Assembly (NCBI GenBank): GCA_024400895.1
Contig: JAKSMA010000057.1
Coordinates: forward strand, 1 to 11,469
DNA from: Muribaculaceae bacterium
Lineage (GTDB): Bacteria; Bacteroidota; Bacteroidia; Bacteroidales; Muribaculaceae
Direction of reading: 5' to 3'
Length of the DNA: 11,469 nt
In this document: one piece after another, positions 2,213-11,449 of the stretch
How the letters are laid out: each line of letters starts with the position of its first letter
How positions within the stretch are numbered: the stretch's first letter is position 1
The notes under the pieces: generated by a model
Told to the model about the DNA's origin: nothing
The model's database searches: none
The model's input: the letters and a program-made list of their open reading frames with translations, nothing else
Translations under genes and position numbers: made by a program

Positions 2213-5200
2213 ATGGGATTAAATGACTTTTTAAAATCGATGTTCGGTAGCAAGAGCGACCGCGACTTGAAGAAACTGCGTCCTATCGTGCAGAAAATCA
2301 AGGATGTGTACCCTTCAATCGAAGCTCTTTCTAACGACGAACTTCGTGCGCGTGTCACTGCTATCCGCCAAGAAATTCAGGATTATGTGCAACCACAGCG
2401 CGACGAAATCGCACAAATTAAAGTTGAGGTAGAAGAACTTGAATTTGAAAAGCGTCAGCCACTTTGGGACAAGGTGGACAAGCTTCAGAAAGAAGTGCTC
2501 GATCGCATTCAGGAAAAACTCGACGAAGTGCTTCCTGAAGTGTTTGCTATCGTAAAAGATACTGCTCGCCGTTTCGCGCAAAACGAAACATTGGAGGTGA
2601 CCGCAACCGACTTCGACCGTCAATTGGCTGCTGAAGGTCGCGACTTCCTCTCAATTGAAGGCGACACGGCCACATACTACAACCACTGGGTGGCTGGTGG
2701 TAACGAAGTGACCTGGGACATGATTCACTACGATGTACAGCTCATCGGTGGTATCGTGCTTCACCAAGGTAAGATTTCGGAAATGGCTACCGGTGAAGGT
2801 AAAACCCTCGTGGGTACACTGCCTGTGTTCTTGAACGCACTTGGCGGCAATGGTGTGCACATGGTGACCGTGAACGACTACCTCGCTAAGCGTGACTCGG
2901 AGTGGATGGGTCCTCTCTACATGTTCCACGGCATCAGCGTGGCTTGTATCGACAAGACTCGCCCTAACTCTCCAGAGCGCCGTGCAGCCTACAACTGCGA
3001 CATTACTTTCGGTACGAACAGCGAATTCGGTTTCGACTACCTTCGCGACAATATGTGTATGAGCCCTGAAGAAATGGTGCAGCGTCCACACAACTTCGCC
3101 ATCGTGGATGAGGTCGACTCTGTGCTTATCGACGACGCCCGTACACCACTCATCATCTCAGGTCCTGTGGCAAGAGGTGAAGACCAAATGTTCAACGACT
3201 TCAAACCAAATGTAGAACGCGTGTACGATGCTCAACGCCGACTCGTCACTCAATTGCTCGCCGACTCTAAACGAATGATGGCAAGCGACGACGACAAGGT
3301 GTTTGAAGAAGGTGTGTTGCTGCTCTATCGTGCACACAAGGGTCTTCCAAAATACAAACCACTGATTAAGTATCTCTCTGAAGAAGGCGTGAAGCAGTCG
3401 ATGATGAAAATCGAGGCTAAGTATATGCAAGACAACAGCCGCGATATGCACATCGTCACCGACCCTCTCTACTTCATCATTGAAGAACAAAACAACACTG
3501 TAGAACTTACCGATAAGGGTATCGATGTGCTCACTAAGGGTACTGAAGACCCTAAGTTCTTCGTGCTTCCTGATATTGCAAGCGAACTTTCGGCAGTGAC
3601 CAACGAGCCTCTTACCGACGAAGAGAAGGTGGCTAAGCGCGACCAATTGTTGCAAAACTACTCACTGAAGGCAGAACGCGTGCACACTGTTACACAGTTG
3701 CTCAAGGCTTACACCCTCTTCAACCGCGACGACGAATATATCGTTGATGAAGAAGGTAAGGTGAAGATTGTGGACGAACAAACAGGTCGTATCATGGAAG
3801 GCCGTCGCTATAGCGATGGTTTGCACCAAGCTATTGAAGCGCAGGAAGGTGTGAATGTGGAAGCTGCTACACAAACTTTCGCTACTATCACTTTGCAGTA
3901 CTACTTCCGTATGTACCACAAGCTCGCTGGTATGACCGGTACTGCAGAAACCGAGGCTGGTGAATTCTGGGAAATCTACAAACTCGACGTTGTAAACATC
4001 CCAACCAACAAGAAGGTGCTCCGCAACGATATGCCTGACCGCGTTTACAAGACTCAAAAAGAGAAGTTCAATGCGGTGATTGAAGAAATTGAAAAGATGC
4101 GCAATTCGGGCCGTCCTACACTGGTGGGTACTACCTCTGTGGAAATCTCAGAAATGCTCAGCCGTATGCTCCGTTTGCGTCACATTCCACACCAGGTGCT
4201 CAATGCGAAACTCCACCAACAAGAAGCCGACATCGTGGCTCAAGCTGGTCAGTCGGTTGAAGGTAAGGGTGTTGTGACTATCGCAACCAACATGGCAGGT
4301 CGTGGTACCGATATCAAGCTTTCACAAGAAGTGAAGGATGCAGGTGGTTTGGCCATCATCGGTACTGAGCGTCACGAATCTCGTCGCGTCGACCGTCAGC
4401 TCCGTGGTCGTGCCGGTCGTCAAGGTGACCCAGGTAGCTCAGTGTTCTTCGTGTCGTTTGAAGACAAGGTAATGCGTCTCTTCGCAAGCGAAAAGATTGT
4501 GAAGTTGCTCGACCGCCTTGGCCTTGAAGATGGCGAAGCTATTGAATCACCAATGGTAACCAAGAGTATTGAAAATGCTCAAAAGCGCGTTGAAGAAAAC
4601 AACTTCGGTATCCGTAAGCACACTCTTGAATACGACGACGTGATGAATGCTCAGCGTAAGGTGATTTACACCAACCGCCACCACGCTCTCATTGGTGAAC
4701 GCATTGGCTTGGATATCATCAACACTATCTACGACACTGTAGAAGATGCTGTTGCAAGATTCAACGACTACGAATATGAAGACTTCAAGATGCATGTGAT
4801 GACCACATTTGCTATTGAGCCTCCATTGGATGAAGATGAATATCGCAAGCTCGACAAGCAAGCCAAGATTGACAAACTCTATAAGGTGGTGACTGAAGCC
4901 TTCAACCGCAAGATGGAACGCTTGCGCGAAGTGGCAACTCCTGTTATTAGCCAAATCGCTCAACAACAACTCGAAAATGGCGCTCCTGAGGTGATGGGTC
5001 AAATCCGTGTACCTGTTGGCGATGGCAAGCGTATGTTCGGTATCGTAATCGACATCAAGGAAGCTTACGAAACTGGTTGCAAGAATCTTGTGAAAGCTTG
5101 GCAAAAGGCTGTGCTCCTGCTTTCTATCGATGAAAACTGGAAGGAACACCTCCGCGAACTCGACCAATTGCGTCAATCAGTTCAGAATGCAAGTTACGAG

Positions 5201-5581
5201 CAGAAGGATCCACTCGTAATCTACAAGGTGGAATCATTCAAGCTCTTCGAAACGATGCTTGGCGTGCTTAATGGCAAGGTGGTGGCTACATTGCTCCGTG
5301 GTCAGATTCCTGTTGAAGCAAGCGACCCTGATAGCGTACGCCGCGAAGGTGAACGTGCACCTGAACGCACCAAACAACAGCAAAGATTGAGCGAAAACCG
5401 TGGTGATGATGCTCTTGCTGCTGCAGCAAAGGCTAATGCACAGGCTTCTCAATCGGCTTCACCACAAGCAGGTCGCCAACCAAACACTCCAATGGTGGCT
5501 GGTCCAAAGGTAATGCCTAACGACCCATGTCCATGTGGTAGTGGTAAGAAGTATAAAAAATGCCACGGCCGATTCGCATAA
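2213..5581 (+). CDS. secA: Preprotein translocase ATPase SecA
   Basis: SecA is the ATPase motor that drives unfolded preproteins through SecYEG. This copy is complete at 1122 residues, the long form usual in Bacteroidota, with an extra charged helical insert near residues 50-110. Walker A is ATGEGKT (Lys197) and Walker B is VDEVD (Asp299, Glu300), followed by [11 protein letters not shown]. Helicase motifs TNMAGRGTD and [13 protein letters not shown] lie in the second nucleotide-binding fold, and the last 20 residues form a SEC-C zinc site (Cys1106, Cys1108, Cys1117, His1118). The start at 2213 is chosen because [12 protein letters not shown] is a typical Bacteroidota SecA N-terminus and an A-rich leader precedes it; in-frame starts at 2093 (GTG) and 2156 (ATG) would add unrelated residues. 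Codon use is more uniform than in its neighbours (for example GGT, AAC, GAA), as expected for high expression. It has its own promoter and terminator. Confidence 0.98.
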
Positions 5582-5613
5582 TCCCGTCAGGCAATAAGAA
5601 ATACATTTAACTG

Positions 5614-5651
5614 ATAGTCGCTTCCTCGGCACTGCTGCAGGGAGCGACTAT
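5614..5651 (+). terminator. secA terminator hairpin
   Basis: A 12-bp stem with one G-U pair, ATAGTCGCTTCC (5614-5625) with GGGAGCGACTAT (5640-5651), closes a 14-base loop and is followed by TGTTTTG. It starts 32 bases after the secA stop codon. The T-tract is short but the stem is strong, consistent with intrinsic termination that insulates secA from the cassette downstream. Confidence 0.75.
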
Positions 5652-5758
5652 TGTTTTGAATCCAAAAAGGGCATTAAGGCATGGATGAGAAGTAAAATAT
5701 GGCCGTTGGTCTCTAATGTACTTTCTGGAATACTCAGAAAAGTTGGAGATGAGGAAGC

Positions 5759-6422
5759 TGTGTTTCGGTAATAATCACTAACTTTGTAGTGTGCAGAGAA
5801 AAATCTGCGTCAGTAGAGATATGGAATTTAACTCGTGGTCGTTTGTGATGTTTTTCCCGGTGGTGTGCCTGCTTTATTGGTGCATCAAGGGACAGCGCTT
5901 CCGCAATGTGTTTTTGCTTGCGGCGAGTTACTATTTCTATATGTGCTGGAATGCCAGTTATGGATTGCTGTTGCTCACGAGCACGCTGATTTCCTATGGC
6001 GTGGGTTTGCGTATGGAAAGCACAGAGAGCCGCACGCAGCGCAAATGGCTCGTCGGTGCTGGCGTGGTGCTGAATTTGGCGCTCATTGCCTATTTCAAAT
6101 ACGCCAATTTTGGTGTGGAAACCGTGAACTGGGTGATGCAACTGCTGGGCGTGGATATGAATGTGCCGTTGCCCAACATCCTGTTGCCTGTTGGCGTGTC
6201 GTTCTTCGTGTTCCAAAGCGTTGGCTACACTGTGGATGTGTATCGCCGCACTGTGCCAGCCGAGCGCAACTTTGTGAACTACGCGCTGTTTATCTCGTTT
6301 TTCCCGCAGTTGGTGGCTGGCCCTATTGAGCGCTCAGGCAATATGCTTCCGCAGTTTCGCGAGCAGCGCACTTTCGACGACGACAAGGCCATCTCTGGCT
6401 TGAAACTGATGCTGTGGGGCTA
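5759..6422 (+). repeat. Perfect 664-base direct repeat, copy 1
   Basis: Every base from 5759 to 6422 matches 8219-8882 (offset 2460). The repeat starts in the promoter spacer and ends at the third base of MBOAT codon 200 plus two bases, where the first mismatch (T/C at 6423) begins a region of about one mismatch in five. No inverted ends or target duplications are visible, so it is not an insertion sequence. Confidence 0.97.
5779..5786 (+). promoter_or_regulatory. Promoter -7 box of cassette 1
   Basis: TAACTTTG fits TAnnTTTG. It is enclosed by a short inverted repeat, CACTA (5776-5780) and TAGTG (5787-5791). No good -33 box precedes it: the base quartet 18 bases upstream is GCTG. Transcription should start near 5793, which places the GTG at 5791 outside the message and supports the ATG at 5821 as the MBOAT start. 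Confidence 0.5.
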
Positions 6423-7236
6423 TTTCATGAAACTTGTGCTGGCCGACCGTTGTGGATTGTATGTCGGCAGTGTGTTTGATGCTCAAATGGAAGACGGTTA
6501 CTCGTCATTAATTGCAATTCTGCTCTTCTCTTTTGAAATCTATGGCGACTTCGCAGGCTACACCTATATAGCCATAGGCGCCGCACGAATCATGGGTTTT
6601 CATCTCAACGACAATTTCCGCCACCCATATTTTTCCGCCACTGTTACAGAGTTTTGGCGCCGGTGGCACATCTCGCTGTCCACGTGGTTTCGCGCCTATC
6701 TCTATTTCCCGCTTGGCGGACGCCGGTGTGGCAAATGGCGCGTCTACTTCAATCTGATGGTCACTTTCTTGGCCAGCGGTTTGTGGCATGGCGCTGGTTG
6801 GTCTTTTGTGCTGTGGGGTGGTCTGCATGGGCTTTTGCTTTGCATCGAACGCGCATTTCACCTTCATGACAAAAAACTCACTAAATTTAGGAGAGTGCCT
6901 CATGTGGTGATTACATTTTTGATGGTTTCATTATGTTGGATGATTTTTAGAGTTCAATCATTGGAACGAATTGCTTATCACCTTCAGCGAGCATGCTGCT
7001 TTGATGATATTTCATTAGGCGACACCCAGACATGCTACTCGTTGGCAGTCGTTTTCTTTGCAATCCTCGTTATTGCTGTGAAAGAGTCATTTGAAAATTA
7101 CGCTCAATCTGCAATGAAGAGATTGTCATCTATATGTGTATGGTGGATAGATGTAATGATTGCACTATTCCTGTTGTTGTCGATTTCGTTTTTCGCATCT
7201 CCAAAGGGAGGGGCTTTTATATATTTCCAATTTTAG
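5821..7236 (+). CDS. MBOAT family membrane O-acyltransferase (AlgI/DltB type), copy 1
   Basis: A 471-residue polytopic inner-membrane protein of the AlgI/DltB/PatA branch of MBOAT, which passes acyl groups, usually acetyl, from a cytoplasmic donor to an extracytoplasmic acceptor. Family marks in order are a start like MEFNSWSFVMFF, LLPVGVSFFVFQSVGYTVDVYR, QLVAGPIER, FWRRWHISLSTWFR (His283) and LASGLWHGAGW (His323, matching the essential His322 of Pseudomonas AlgI). Odd point: residue 292 is Ala (GCC, 6694-6696), giving FRAYLYFPLGG, where copy 2 and most family members have FRDYLY. Residues 1-206 are identical to copy 2. After about 6850 the gene turns AT-rich and diverges. The ATG at 5821 is used because the predicted transcript starts after the GTG at 5791. 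The SGNH-like partner follows 6 bases after the stop, so they are translated together. The natural acceptor is unknown; this copy may have altered or reduced activity. Confidence 0.9.
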   Translation: MEFNSWSFVMFFPVVCLLYWCIKGQRFRNVFLLAASYYFYMCWNASYGLLLLTSTLISYGVGLRMESTESRTQRKWLVGAGVVLNLALIAYFKYANFGVETVNWVMQLLGVDMNVPLPNILLPVGVSFFVFQSVGYTVDVYRRTVPAERNFVNYALFISFFPQLVAGPIERSGNMLPQFREQRTFDDDKAISGLKLMLWGYFMKLVLADRCGLYVGSVFDAQMEDGYSSLIAILLFSFEIYGDFAGYTYIAIGAARIMGFHLNDNFRHPYFSATVTEFWRRWHISLSTWFRAYLYFPLGGRRCGKWRVYFNLMVTFLASGLWHGAGWSFVLWGGLHGLLLCIERAFHLHDKKLTKFRRVPHVVITFLMVSLCWMIFRVQSLERIAYHLQRACCFDDISLGDTQTCYSLAVVFFAILVIAVKESFENYAQSAMKRLSSICVWWIDVMIALFLLLSISFFASPKGGAFIYFQF

Positions 7237-7242
7237 AAGATG

Positions 7243-8145
7243 ATGAAACACCGCTTCCTTAAAATGCTGTTCACTGTTTTTACGGTAGGTTTAGCAATTA
7301 TATTAATTGTTAAGTTCTCATCGTTGGCATATATCGACAAGGCGCTTGATTTCAACCTTCCAAAAGAGAAAAAAGTGTTGGTTTTGGGAAGCTCATTCGG
7401 TGAAGACGCCATTGATGATAGCATTCTAAATAACTGGTCGAATAAATGTCATAGTGCAGATATGCTGTTCTGTACATATGTTTTGTTGAATCGCTATTTA
7501 GAAAAGAATCAGGTGGATACGGTTCTGGTGCAATTAGATGAATTTGGCATGGGCGACGATGCCTACATTTCTACTAATTATCTCCTATATGAGAGCTCAC
7601 GGATGGCTATTGCAGGTGTTGACGTGGTTAAAGATTTGGTGTCGGTTGATGCAGAATCGGTTTTGTCATTTTATTTATTGAACGATTTATTCACGCTCTC
7701 TCAAAAGCATGTAATAGGCGGGTATGAGAATTGGCATCATCAAGGACTAACTACAGAACTTCAAGAGTTGGATGCCAAATTAAAGAAAAATGGGAAAATG
7801 AAATTGCCTAAGTTCCCTCTTTCGTGCTATAGCTTGCAGAATAAATATCTTACAAAAATCATTGAGCTATGTAAGCGTAAAGGTGTTCAATTGGTATTGG
7901 TCAACTATCCTAAATATAAGCGAGGGATGTATTATGATCGGTCTGTGGTGTGGGACTATTACACCACTTTAGACGATAGCGTGAAGATTGCTGAGTATGA
8001 AAATTTTGAGTTCCCTGACACATCCTACTATGCTAATAGTGGACACCTCAATTATCGAGGCGCAGCATATTTCTCATCAGCACTTCGCCGTGAAGGCTTG
8101 AAACTACAGTCGCCCAAATCATGGTGTGCCACCCGTCACGACTAA
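7243..8145 (+). CDS. Membrane-anchored SGNH-like partner of the MBOAT protein, copy 1
   Basis: A 300-residue protein with one N-terminal membrane segment (residues about 8-25) and an extracytoplasmic domain. It resembles the SGNH partners of MBOAT proteins (AlgJ/AlgX, PatB, DltD type), which take the acyl group from the MBOAT protein and place it on the polymer. Block I is VLVLGSSFGEDAI with the probable nucleophile Ser51. The C-terminal block is NSGHLNYRGAAYFS with His268; the residue three before the His is Asn265, where SGNH enzymes normally have Asp. The ATG at 7243 is preferred to the one at 7240 because it gives exactly the length of copy 2 and the same MKHRFLK start. About half of its residues match copy 2 in an ungapped alignment. 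Base composition is clearly more AT-rich than copy 2. Partnership with the preceding gene is inferred from order and spacing. Confidence 0.75.
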   Translation: MKHRFLKMLFTVFTVGLAIILIVKFSSLAYIDKALDFNLPKEKKVLVLGSSFGEDAIDDSILNNWSNKCHSADMLFCTYVLLNRYLEKNQVDTVLVQLDEFGMGDDAYISTNYLLYESSRMAIAGVDVVKDLVSVDAESVLSFYLLNDLFTLSQKHVIGGYENWHHQGLTTELQELDAKLKKNGKMKLPKFPLSCYSLQNKYLTKIIELCKRKGVQLVLVNYPKYKRGMYYDRSVVWDYYTTLDDSVKIAEYENFEFPDTSYYANSGHLNYRGAAYFSSALRREGLKLQSPKSWCATRHD

Positions 8146-8155
8146 TGTGCGAAGG

Positions 8156-8172
8156 GCTCTTTGTTCAAGAGC
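8156..8172 (+). terminator. Small hairpin after cassette 1
   Basis: GCTCTT (8156-8161) pairs with AAGAGC (8167-8172) across a 5-base loop, ten bases after the SGNH stop codon. There is no T-run after it, so termination would be weak and some read-through into cassette 2 is likely. Confidence 0.3.
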
Positions 8173-8218
8173 GACTACATGCTATATATATATGGTAAGA
8201 TGTTGGGCACATTTAGGT

Positions 8219-8882
8219 TGTGTTTCGGTAATAATCACTAACTTTGTAGTGTGCAGAGAAAAATCTGCGTCAGTAGAGATATGGAATTTAACTCGTGGTC
8301 GTTTGTGATGTTTTTCCCGGTGGTGTGCCTGCTTTATTGGTGCATCAAGGGACAGCGCTTCCGCAATGTGTTTTTGCTTGCGGCGAGTTACTATTTCTAT
8401 ATGTGCTGGAATGCCAGTTATGGATTGCTGTTGCTCACGAGCACGCTGATTTCCTATGGCGTGGGTTTGCGTATGGAAAGCACAGAGAGCCGCACGCAGC
8501 GCAAATGGCTCGTCGGTGCTGGCGTGGTGCTGAATTTGGCGCTCATTGCCTATTTCAAATACGCCAATTTTGGTGTGGAAACCGTGAACTGGGTGATGCA
8601 ACTGCTGGGCGTGGATATGAATGTGCCGTTGCCCAACATCCTGTTGCCTGTTGGCGTGTCGTTCTTCGTGTTCCAAAGCGTTGGCTACACTGTGGATGTG
8701 TATCGCCGCACTGTGCCAGCCGAGCGCAACTTTGTGAACTACGCGCTGTTTATCTCGTTTTTCCCGCAGTTGGTGGCTGGCCCTATTGAGCGCTCAGGCA
8801 ATATGCTTCCGCAGTTTCGCGAGCAGCGCACTTTCGACGACGACAAGGCCATCTCTGGCTTGAAACTGATGCTGTGGGGCTA
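8219..8882 (+). repeat. Perfect 664-base direct repeat, copy 2
   Basis: Identical to 5759-6422. Its left end lies in the promoter spacer, 20 bases before the -7 box, and its right end at MBOAT codon 201. The two copies are in the same orientation with 1796 bases between them, so homologous recombination could delete or multiply a 2460-base unit. Confidence 0.97.
8239..8246 (+). promoter_or_regulatory. Promoter -7 box of cassette 2
   Basis: TAACTTTG, identical to that of cassette 1 and in the same inverted repeat. The upstream sequence differs because the repeat begins at 8219: here GTTG (8217-8220) lies 18 bases before the -7 box, one base from the TTTG consensus, against GCTG in cassette 1. 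Cassette 2 may therefore have the stronger promoter. Confidence 0.5.
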
Positions 8883-9696
8883 CTTTATGAAACTTGTGGT
8901 GGCCGACCGATGTGCACTTTATGTGGGCAGTGTGTTCGACACACCTCAAGTGGAAGGCTATTCTTCGCTTTTGGGCATCTTCCTCTTCCCGTTCCAGATT
9001 TATGGCGATTTCGCAGGCTACACTTATATTGCCATAGGCTCGGCACGAATCATGGGTTTCCATCTCAACGATAATTTCAATCATCCATATTTTGCTGCCA
9101 CGGTAAGCGAATTTTGGCGCCGTTGGCACATTTCGCTATCCACTTGGTTTCGCGACTATCTGTATTTCCCGCTTGGCGGAAGCCGGTGTGGCAAATGGCG
9201 CGTCTACTTCAACCTCATGGTCACTTTCCTGGCCAGTGGCTTGTGGCATGGTGCCATGTGGACTTATGTGGCATGGGGTGGCGTGCATGGCCTTTGCTTA
9301 TGCATAGAGCGCGCTCTTGGATGGCAGAAAAAGAAATTTAAAGCATTGGAGAAATGTGTGCATGTGGCAGTCACCTTTGTGATTGTGTCGCTTGCTCGTC
9401 TTATCTATCGTGCCGGTAGTATAGAAATGGCTGTCGTTCATTTCAAGCGTGCTCTTCATCCTTCAAATTTCACTCTGGGTAATGAAAATACCCATTTCGC
9501 TTTGCTGATGATTCTCATATCTGTAATCATTGTGGTGGTGAAAGATGCAGTGGAAGAGTGGGGTGGCGGCATGCAGAAACTACGCTGCTCAGTGTCGGTC
9601 TGGTGGCGCGATGTGGCCATCGTATCGCTACTGATTGTGGCTATTTCTCTTATGGCTTCGCCTGAAGGTGGCACATTTGTGTATTTCCAATTTTAG
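8281..9696 (+). CDS. MBOAT family membrane O-acyltransferase (AlgI/DltB type), copy 2
   Basis: A 471-residue paralogue of the protein at 5821-7236, with the same length and identical over residues 1-206. All family marks are intact: QLVAGPIER, WRRWHISLS (His283), FRDYLYFPLGGSR with Asp292 (GAC, 9154-9156), and LASGLWHGAMW (His323, the expected catalytic His). It should therefore be an active acyl-transfer channel for an extracytoplasmic glycan or cell-wall polymer. The part beyond about residue 340 is strongly diverged from copy 1 but still hydrophobic and ends in the same YFQF. The ATG at 8281 is used for the same reason as in copy 1. The next gene starts 5 bases after the stop, indicating a two-gene operon. 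No glycosyltransferase or polysaccharide genes lie nearby, so the acceptor cannot be inferred from this window. Confidence 0.93.
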   Translation: MEFNSWSFVMFFPVVCLLYWCIKGQRFRNVFLLAASYYFYMCWNASYGLLLLTSTLISYGVGLRMESTESRTQRKWLVGAGVVLNLALIAYFKYANFGVETVNWVMQLLGVDMNVPLPNILLPVGVSFFVFQSVGYTVDVYRRTVPAERNFVNYALFISFFPQLVAGPIERSGNMLPQFREQRTFDDDKAISGLKLMLWGYFMKLVVADRCALYVGSVFDTPQVEGYSSLLGIFLFPFQIYGDFAGYTYIAIGSARIMGFHLNDNFNHPYFAATVSEFWRRWHISLSTWFRDYLYFPLGGSRCGKWRVYFNLMVTFLASGLWHGAMWTYVAWGGVHGLCLCIERALGWQKKKFKALEKCVHVAVTFVIVSLARLIYRAGSIEMAVVHFKRALHPSNFTLGNENTHFALLMILISVIIVVVKDAVEEWGGGMQKLRCSVSVWWRDVAIVSLLIVAISLMASPEGGTFVYFQF

Positions 9697-9701
9697 AAAA
9701 A

Positions 9702-10604
9702 ATGAAACATCGCTTTCTTAAAACAATAGCATTGGCATTTCCCCTGAGCATTTTGATGGTGTTTGGGTTGAAGTTTGCTACGCTTGCCCATATGAGGAGC
9801 CAGCTCAACTTCAGTTTGGGTGCCGATAAGAAAGTGCTGGTGCTGGGCAATTCGCACGGGCGTGACGCAATTTGCGATTCGTTGTTACCGGGATGGGCAA
9901 ATCGGTGTGCCGATGGTGAGGTCTACTTCGGCGTGTATCAGTTGGCGAAACGTATGCTTGACCAAAACAAAATCGACACGCTGGTGATTCATATGGTGGA
10001 TTTTGAGTCGTATCCCGACGAGAACATCAACACAAATTTTATGCTCTATGAAAGTTCGCGCATGGCGTTGGCCGACGAGGAGCTACTCTCGAGGTTGTGG
10101 CAAATGAATTGGGGCGATTTGCTCTCGTTTTATTGTATCAACGATGTGCAAGCCATGCTCAAGCCTGTGGAAGTGGGTGGATATGAGCATTGGGACCACC
10201 ACAATCTCTCTCTGGAATTGAAAAATCTGGAATATAGGCTGGCAAACAAAGGCAAAACATCAACCCCGAAGAATTCGATTGCTCACTACACATTGCAAAC
10301 ACACTACTTAAACCGGATTATTCAACTCTGTAAACAGGAGGGTGTTCAATTGGTGATGGTCAACTATCCAAAATATAAGCGCAGCAAATATTTCGACCGT
10401 TCAAAGGCTTGGGATTACTACACCACCCTGGAGGGGGGACTTCTGATTGCCGACTACGAGAATTTTGTTTTCCCCGACTCTACCTATTTCGCCAACTGCA
10501 CTCACCTCAACTACCACGGAGCCGAACTCTTTACCTCATCGCTCCGCAAGGAAGGTTTGAAATTGCAGTCGCCAAAAGCTTGGCGCTCCACTCGAAAAGA
10601 TTAA
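9702..10604 (+). CDS. Membrane-anchored SGNH-like partner of the MBOAT protein, copy 2
   Basis: A 300-residue paralogue of the protein at 7243-8145, with an N-terminal membrane segment (residues about 8-25) and an extracytoplasmic SGNH-like domain. Block I reads VLVLGNSHGRDAI with probable nucleophile Ser51, closer to the GNSH/GDSH form seen in acyl-transfer partners than the GSSF of copy 1. The C-terminal block is NCTHLNYHGAELF with His268 and, as in copy 1, Asn265 in place of the usual Asp. The stretch VQLVMVNYPKYKR and the tail GLKLQSPK are nearly invariant between copies. It starts 5 bases after the MBOAT stop. The likely job is final transfer of the acyl group to the polymer outside the membrane; a pure esterase role is possible. 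Confidence 0.78.
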   Translation: MKHRFLKTIALAFPLSILMVFGLKFATLAHMRSQLNFSLGADKKVLVLGNSHGRDAICDSLLPGWANRCADGEVYFGVYQLAKRMLDQNKIDTLVIHMVDFESYPDENINTNFMLYESSRMALADEELLSRLWQMNWGDLLSFYCINDVQAMLKPVEVGGYEHWDHHNLSLELKNLEYRLANKGKTSTPKNSIAHYTLQTHYLNRIIQLCKQEGVQLVMVNYPKYKRSKYFDRSKAWDYYTTLEGGLLIADYENFVFPDSTYFANCTHLNYHGAELFTSSLRKEGLKLQSPKAWRSTRKD

Positions 10605-10675: not shown

Positions 10676-11449
10676 TTATTTGTAGATGCTGTTGAGGAGG
10701 TGGGCTAAGCGAAGGCCGCCTTTGAGGAATTGTTGCTCAACCACGGGCGCATATTTGGCACCATAGTTGTAGGATACTCGGGAGCCTTCTGGGGTGTCGG
10801 CATAGATGCCAGCCACGATGCTGATGCTTTCTTTTGCCCAAGTATCTACGTCGCCAGCCACAATTTTTGCTTCTTCTTCGGCAGAGGCGCGGTCGATTTG
10901 GAATTGCCATTCGCTGTAGCTCCATTTGTGAACGAAATCCACGATTTCGCTGTCCCAATAGCTGTGGAGGTTGGTGTCGCGATTGAAGCTGAAAATCTTG
11001 ATTTTGTTGCCGCCGAGGTCCACTTTGTGGCCCATGTGCAAAGGCTGATGCAAATCGCCCACAAGATGGATGAGCATACGGAGCGCTATATTTTCATCTT
11101 CATGGCTGAGGTTGCCATTTTTGAGTTTGTTCACTATGTCTTTGATAGCCCATACCACGTCGCCAGTTGAGATGGTTGGTGCAGATTCGTATGCTTGTCC
11201 GTCTTCCACGTTCTTGTAGTGCCAGGTTTTGGTATAGCGATATTCAGGAGTGTTGCTGGCATTGTCGAGCCAGTTGGAATAGTACACCAACGAATGGCCG
11301 TCGAGCGCCGCTTCCACTTTTGCCTTAACTTGTTCTGAGAGATGTTGCTCGGCAATATATGCCGTTACGTCGTGTCCTTTTTGTCCCCAGGCAAATGCGC
11401 TTACTGCGGTGCCAAGGGCTGCAACGAGAAGTAGAAAATTTCGTTTCAT
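10676..11449 (-). CDS. Exported S1/P1-type zinc nuclease
   Basis: A 257-residue member of the S1/P1 nuclease family, which cleaves single-stranded RNA and DNA and removes 3'-phosphates using three zinc ions. The signal peptide ends at AFA (residue 20), so the mature protein begins with Trp21, as this family needs for zinc binding by the N-terminus. The expected ligands are all present with the spacing of nuclease P1: Trp21, His26, Asp62, His77, His128, Asp132, His138, His162 and Asp166 (motifs WGQKGH, KTWHYKN, HLVGDLHQPLH, LHSYWDSE). Length is in the usual range. It acts in the periplasm or outside the cell, probably in nucleic-acid scavenging. It is convergent with the acyltransferase cassette and functionally separate from it. 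The start at 11449 gives the clean signal peptide; its promoter lies mostly beyond the window. Confidence 0.95.
   Translation of the reverse strand: MKRNFLLLVAALGTAVSAFAWGQKGHDVTAYIAEQHLSEQVKAKVEAALDGHSLVYYSNWLDNASNTPEYRYTKTWHYKNVEDGQAYESAPTISTGDVVWAIKDIVNKLKNGNLSHEDENIALRMLIHLVGDLHQPLHMGHKVDLGGNKIKIFSFNRDTNLHSYWDSEIVDFVHKWSYSEWQFQIDRASAEEEAKIVAGDVDTWAKESISIVAGIYADTPEGSRVSYNYGAKYAPVVEQQFLKGGLRLAHLLNSIYK

Follow-up and report, generated by a model that had tools for sequence, protein, structure and literature searches.

Two tandem MBOAT-SGNH cassettes with an identical front block and diverged back modules downstream of secA in a Muribaculaceae genome

We describe here an 11,469-nucleotide stretch of contig JAKSMA010000057.1 (hereafter the window) from a Muribaculaceae bacterium (GenBank assembly GCA_024400895.1), in which two complete gene pairs, each encoding a membrane-bound O-acyltransferase family protein (MBOAT) and an SGNH partner, follow one another in the same orientation, with secA on one side and an S1/P1 nuclease gene on the other. 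The reading we favour, at a probability of roughly 60%, is that of a tandem of two working cassettes whose fronts were recently homogenised by recombination and whose backs diverged anciently. The original prediction, made from the letters of the window, had already proposed the two head-to-tail pairs with equal gene lengths of 471 and 300 residues, and the open reading frame (ORF) calls bear out the arrangement, the lengths and the coordinates; it began the locus at 5759, which is the exact first base of a block shared by the two cassettes, and was silent on the 100% identity of that block. The first MBOAT start called by the ORF tool was an upstream GTG giving 481 residues, and from the ATG the protein has 471. 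The features of the two cassettes are as follows.

5759..5786, + strand: promoter-like 28-bp element of cassette 1, ending in TAACTTTG
5759..6422, + strand: repeat R copy 1 (promoter region, 5' untranslated region (UTR), MBOAT1 codons 1-200 plus two bases)
5821..7236, + strand: MBOAT1, 471 residues from the ATG, C-terminal FIYFQF
6423..8145, + strand: module U1, diverged (MBOAT1 codons 201-471 and SGNH1)
7243..8145, + strand: SGNH1, 300 residues (301 from the ATG at 7240), N-terminal membrane helix
8219..8246, + strand: promoter-like 28-bp element of cassette 2, ending in TAACTTTG
8219..8882, + strand: repeat R copy 2 (promoter region, 5' UTR, MBOAT2 codons 1-200 plus two bases)
8281..9696, + strand: MBOAT2, 471 residues from the ATG, C-terminal FVYFQF
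8883..10604, + strand: module U2, diverged (MBOAT2 codons 201-471 and SGNH2)
9702..10604, + strand: SGNH2, 300 residues, 49% identical to SGNH1

The two copies of R are identical at 664 of 664 bp with an offset of 2460; their 5' flanks are unrelated, and on the 3' side divergence is immediate from 6423. Within MBOAT codons 1-200 there are no changes at about 135 synonymous sites, and beyond them the synonymous divergence (pS) between MBOAT1 and MBOAT2 is 0.66 for codons 201-260, 0.47 for codons 261-345 and 0.71-0.84 for codons 346-471, reaching 0.84 between the two SGNH genes, with the protein identity of the MBOATs falling from 100% (1-200) to 78-90% (201-345) and 33-37% (346-471). Because R is identical at synonymous sites and also upstream of the gene, protein constraint is excluded as the cause of the identity, and codon 201 marks a recombination breakpoint; the sharp divergence edge is the mark of recombination, whether by conversion or by crossover at the repeat. 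R takes the form that marks gene conversion, a tract free of synonymous change bounded by strongly diverged sequence, and within it the paralogues are closer to each other than to the orthologue. The nearest genome, G043, is 96.6% identical across the stretch from the Lnb-like gene to secA, and its R differs by 5-7% from both window copies (93.3-94.5% identity over the 440-461 bp present), from which it follows that the window copies were made alike after the split from G043. For U1 and U2, by comparison, the near-saturated synonymous sites show that the split is old.

We note that conversion between the cassettes may not have been confined to R. The synonymous changes in codons 261-345 number 27 of 57 sites between MBOAT1 and MBOAT2 as compared to 44 of 54.5 between MBOAT2 and its counterpart in genome G041 (Fisher p=0.0003), and the same comparison for codons 346-471 gives no difference (p=0.47), which is suggestive of older conversions in the former segment. 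This hint is weak, because pS between the single cassettes of G041 and G002 also drops to 0.55 in codons 261-300.

The two pairs would appear to be functional. The MBOAT domain (PF03062) scores 87.0 and 90.8 bits in the two MBOATs against a cut-off of 27, and the closest solved structure is DltB, by sequence for MBOAT2 and by fold for the predicted model of MBOAT1. A search with the whole of MBOAT1 scored the best 7,999 candidates and listed at least 120 matches; His323, His336 and Tyr468, the last within the C-terminal hexapeptide, are kept in 120 of 120 aligned MBOATs, MBOAT1 and MBOAT2 included. SGNH1, which adjoins MBOAT1, has an N-terminal membrane helix and is predicted at modest confidence to adopt the SGNH fold, and thus provides the membrane-anchored SGNH-fold partner that such a pair calls for. 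PatB and OatA are among its matches, and its top Foldseek rows include 3bma (a D-alanyl-lipoteichoic acid synthetase chain, E 0.014), which we take to be DltD. PDB sequence searches with the SGNH proteins returned no credible relatives, and PatB was missing from the matches listed for SGNH2 and for the family profile. Ser52, Asp260 and His269 are invariant in the 12 members of this clade's SGNH family. An orthologue of SGNH1, P0002, is 88% identical, lies on an 18,654-bp contig and is without the first 8 residues of SGNH1. Together the two stand apart from the 10 other members of the family (support 94/88, short of the tool's star and with long-branch warnings), and they read GSSFGED where nine of those ten read GNSHGRD.

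The following mechanism, in which catalysis, acyl donor, acceptors and co-expression are inferred, would account for these features. By analogy with PatAB and Dlt, each MBOAT would take an acyl group from cytoplasmic acyl-CoA, load it onto the tyrosine in the FI/VYFQF tail at its own C-terminus and pass it to the membrane-anchored SGNH partner and so to an envelope or exported glycan; this scheme of MBOAT-SGNH acyl transfer is drawn from the consulted part of PMC12148441. The constant front (promoter region, 5' UTR and 200 MBOAT residues) would have been made identical by recent homologous recombination between the copies, and the diverged back modules, each the C-terminal part of an MBOAT with its SGNH protein, very probably differ in activity while sharing one type of promoter. 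It is reasonable to suppose, as the original prediction had proposed, that the pairs serve two acceptors or transfer two different acyl groups. Recombination at R could presumably also delete or amplify cassette 1.

MBOAT1 is, on these comparisons, a mosaic. Its codons 1-200 are 100% identical to those of MBOAT2, and over codons 201-471 it shares only 53-62% identity with any of 14 relatives (MBOAT2 and P0014-P0026), as compared to a C-terminal part of MBOAT2 that reaches up to 86% with relatives and 98% with P0014. In the tree of the C-terminal part MBOAT1 branches off close to the base, with a long branch of 0.78, and a search of 507 candidates with its residues 330-471 turned up nothing besides MBOAT1 itself at E<=1e-12. 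That U1 is older than the whole clade was considered and is not established.

Several observations weigh against the favoured reading, or against parts of it. A crossover at an already shared repeat would yield the same R as conversion, and the exact identity of R could be the consensus of near-identical copies, the source being a draft genome (67% complete, 261 contigs, probably metagenome-assembled). A draft contig with a 664-bp exact repeat does not settle how many R-U1 units there are, and a mixed population including deleted or excised forms is possibly compatible with it. The age of the U1/U2 split is not orderable against species splits, both modules being near synonymous saturation, and a clade of MBOAT1, MBOAT2 and P0014 is not rejected (approximately unbiased test, p=0.228). 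Low synonymous divergence in codons 261-345 is also found outside the tandem, with pS of 0.55-0.70 between the single cassettes of G041 and G002. For the enzymes themselves, the SGNH1 model is weak, with a mean confidence (pLDDT) of 61.6. DxxH is a motif of SGNH proteins, and 11 of the 12 family members have Asn in place of its Asp. MBOAT1 deviates at six positions conserved in at least 95% of the aligned MBOATs (Q239E, D292A, T328S, G347H, A378V and E426N), and because of these departures cassette 1 may be altered or weakening; MBOAT2 deviates at none.

The alternative that survives best, although we consider it somewhat unlikely, is that the tandem arose as a merodiploid by integration. Here U1 and U2 would be alternative cassettes of the species that shared R beforehand, and one recent crossover at R between a resident R-U2 and an incoming R-U1 would suffice, with no need for conversion between neighbours. 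R does run without a break between its promoter region and MBOAT codon 200, and the sequence 5' of copy 1 can be aligned to the secA-side flank of G043. The P0002 contig, moreover, is longer than the longest contigs of the 15 MBOAT clusters P0013-P0027 (among the matches listed), as if U1 stood there without U2, and G041 and G002 hold single clade cassettes at other loci. However, the P0002 contig may simply begin at that point, given the 8 absent residues, and MBOAT fragments below 0.55 of the query length were not candidates; the lower synonymous divergence in codons 261-345 and the case of genome G069, described below, favour conversion between resident copies.

Two further alternatives are very unlikely. 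Cassette 1 might be a decaying or inactive duplicate whose sequence is kept by conversion of its front half, which would suit the six departures of MBOAT1 against none in MBOAT2, the long branch of its C-terminal half and the unmatched residues 330-471, but the frames are open, the catalytic His and Tyr are kept, an 88% orthologue of SGNH1 exists, residue 292 is variable in other MBOATs, and nonsynonymous divergence (pN) lies below pS in MBOAT codons 346-471 (0.40-0.48 as compared to 0.71-0.84) and in the SGNH genes (0.34 as compared to 0.84). D292A in particular was rejected as proof of inactivity, since other MBOATs also have E, K, H, Q, L, T or Y at this position. Neither cassette looks like a pseudogene, the fate that the original prediction had allowed for one copy, and the frames, catalytic residues, synonymous excess and SGNH1 orthologue all speak for MBOAT1-SGNH1 as a working, perhaps altered, enzyme. 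It is just as improbable that assembly or binning joined alleles of two strains through R, so that no cell holds both in this order; a draft of 261 contigs, an exact 664-bp repeat longer than short reads and the breaks of G043 inside the same stretch would permit this, but at the U1-R junction there is a separate 73-nt spacer (8146-8218), the sequence 5' of copy 2 does not resemble the secA flank, and alleles of one site would both continue into the nuclease gene. The contig contains all of the junctions (secA-R, R-U1, U1-R, R-U2 and U2-nuclease).

Returning to recombination between resident copies, a second case is offered by tandems of a different build in the same genus. Among the matches listed, which are not a census, three genomes have two adjacent MBOATs followed by one SGNH-sized ORF, an assignment made by position (the G089 ORF has no Pfam match).

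G089, L169 166-3028: MBOAT-MBOAT and SGNH-sized ORF
G084, L170 1436-4258: MBOAT-MBOAT and SGNH-sized ORF
G069, L171 5750-8567: MBOAT-MBOAT and SGNH-sized ORF

The MBOAT genes are separated by 19-67 bp, and their longest in-register exact runs are 26-80 bp. In G069 the core has pS of 0.19-0.36 between its own two copies (a and b) as compared to 0.34-0.67 to copies of the same type in G089 and G084, and in residues 301-352 its b copy is 88-92% identical to a copies and 71-76% to b copies. G089 and G084 concur in distinguishing a from b at 43 sites. At these the two G069 copies read almost alike as far as about residue 397 (2 sites differ), and past that point each copy mostly keeps to its own type; over residues 353-466 the a copy has 13 a, 2 b and 5 other residues and the b copy 5 a, 11 b and 4 other. 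These patterns indicate that on at least two occasions in the genus the core was homogenised and the C-terminus preserved. G089 and G084 count against its generality, having no homogenisation of such strength (within-genome pS 0.36-0.73 over residues 1-352).

These operons also bear on the proposal that the C-terminal half of the MBOAT and the SGNH partner diverge together because that half docks the partner. We do not think that this step follows, as the identity reaches synonymous sites and upstream sequence and ends at an edge at codon 201; such a pattern records recombination and does not gauge functional constraint. Codons 346-471 are also the most diverged part between the single cassettes of G041 and G002, and in the MBOAT-MBOAT-SGNH operons, G069 included, MBOATs with differing C-termini stand beside a single SGNH-sized gene. 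In the PatAB model, as given in the consulted part of PMC12148441, the SGNH protein contacts the first and the last MBOAT helix. The C-terminal half may nevertheless dock the SGNH partner.

With regard to known systems, the enzyme kind is familiar and the recombining arrangement is unusual. The window pairs resemble the MBOAT-SGNH pair PatA/PatB, a peptidoglycan O-acetyltransferase described in the part of PMC12148441 consulted, and differ from it in forming two tandem pairs with an identical front block. They likewise resemble DltB/DltD of teichoic acid D-alanylation, DltB being the best solved match of the MBOATs in sequence and fold, but the tyrosine tail is fused to the window MBOAT whereas in Dlt it lies within the DltX peptide, and membership of the Dlt family was rejected (TIGR04091, cut-off 375 bits, scores 155.1 and 154.2). 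The operons of G089, G084 and G069 share head-to-tail MBOAT paralogues with the most divergence at the C-terminus and, in G069, a homogenised core, but have one SGNH-sized gene and no long exact repeat, as compared to the two pairs of the window. In constant/variable tandem gene families the front recombines by gene conversion and a variable back stays diverse. The likeness to the window lies in this recombining constant front and diverse back; the unit in the window, however, is a full two-gene enzyme cassette with its own upstream element, and no silent copies, inverted repeats or recombinase were seen in the window. No conversion between MBOAT paralogues, nor such a pattern in MBOAT-SGNH pairs, was found in the literature searched.

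We speculate, while regarding the idea as doubtful, that the locus is a recombination-driven specificity array, in which R would be a constant promoter and acyl-loading module and the MBOAT C-terminus with its SGNH protein an exchangeable specificity module. If so, RecA-type recombination at R would gain, lose, amplify and exchange modules between strains, glycan acylation might be strain- or phase-variable without a dedicated recombinase, and the exemption of the C-terminus in G069 would follow the same principle. MBOAT-SGNH pairs set the acylation of many envelope polymers, and the choice of partner and acceptor is poorly understood; the recombined MBOATs, identical for 200 residues and then diverged, are natural chimeras that may indicate which part two partners can share and which they cannot. 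Should recombination at R make strains differ in the modules they carry, gut Bacteroidales would have in it an uncomplicated way of varying their surface chemistry.

A switchable surface modification in the sense of the original prediction is possible, although the window has no inverted repeats of at least 20 nt and no recombinase was found among the 8 window ORFs scanned. An inversion switch was rejected on the lack of such repeats, and there is no promoterless copy in the window of the kind that phase-variable loci keep, both copies carrying the upstream element. A study of pneumococcal O-acetylation and DNA inversion does not serve as a precedent, since in the part of it consulted (PMC12324116) acetylation controls hsdS inversion.

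The proposal that each cassette has its own promoter stands in part. TAACTTTG occurs at 5779 and 8239, 42 bp 5' of each MBOAT ATG, and the 28-bp element is unchanged in the sister genome G043 despite a differing 5' UTR behind it. TAnnTTTG, which we take to be the Bacteroidales -7 element, is found 10 times in the window as compared to a chance mean of 7.7, and a generic sigma-70 scan gave nothing above chance. Matches of this type lie within 140 bp upstream of other MBOATs in G041 (at -107) and L013, and there is none within that distance in G002 or at 5 of 6 other named loci. Because the motif counts are near chance and the element is absent at most other loci, the promoter argument stands on position and on conservation in G043.

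Close relatives of the cassettes are few. In the genus group searched (101 genomes, its own included), SGNH proteins at least 44% identical to SGNH1 were found, besides the own genome, only in G043, G041 and G002, and SGNH1 matches at E<=1e-10 in 7 of 101; among 397 family genomes SGNH2 has matches at E<=1e-3 in 27, which are weak (E 1e-17 or worse) except in the own genome and these same three. The genome of the window itself has three further full-length MBOATs (36-43% identity) and one contig-edge fragment. To count cassettes downstream of secA in relatives, as had been suggested, gave a partial answer. G041 (5,127-bp contig) and G002 (12,928-bp contig), whose assemblies are 77-80% complete, have one clade cassette each, elsewhere than at the secA site. 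G043 is 99.0% identical across the 2,302 bp that begin at MBOAT2 codon 297 and take in the nuclease gene, and is broken inside the cassette stretch, with contig C70 ending at window-equivalent 6195 and C71 starting at 9170; U1 was not found in this genome, which is 78% complete and has its contigs broken between those two points. At the breaks (L160 1 and L157 1) the secA-side MBOAT stops at codon 125 and the nuclease-side one resumes at codon 297, which would fit a differently placed identical tract of codons ~126-296. G042 has the secA stretch at 80.5%, and the 866 bp remaining on its contig hold no cassette. Since a Phd-like antitoxin ORF (E 6.5e-6, below the Pfam cut-off) and a 112-residue ORF (L161 6196-6805) stand there in place of the cassettes, the spot 3' of secA seems variable.

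The remaining features of the window flank the cassettes.

Left end of the window, 5' of secA: Lnb-like protein gene, then a small ORF
2213..5581, + strand: secA, left flank, outside the cassettes
5613..5652, + strand: hairpin after secA (ends hand-counted and approximate; fold of 5583-5680, -31.8 kcal/mol for the whole stretch)
10676..11449, - strand: S1/P1 nuclease gene, right flank, convergent, outside the cassettes

The order is thus Lnb-like gene, small ORF, secA, MBOAT1, SGNH1, MBOAT2, SGNH2 and nuclease gene, and the earlier remark that polysaccharide genes are missing from the surroundings is true within the window, where the neighbours encode the Lnb-like protein, the small ORF, SecA and the S1/P1 nuclease. 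The predicted hairpin 3' of secA is likely a terminator that separates cassette 1 from secA. Behind it, G043 lacks some 70 bp that precede the cassette 1 promoter in the window (5653-5734). The same genome has, directly past the nuclease gene, an AT3 (Acyl_transf_3) gene (L157 2412-3530), another possible surface acyltransferase.

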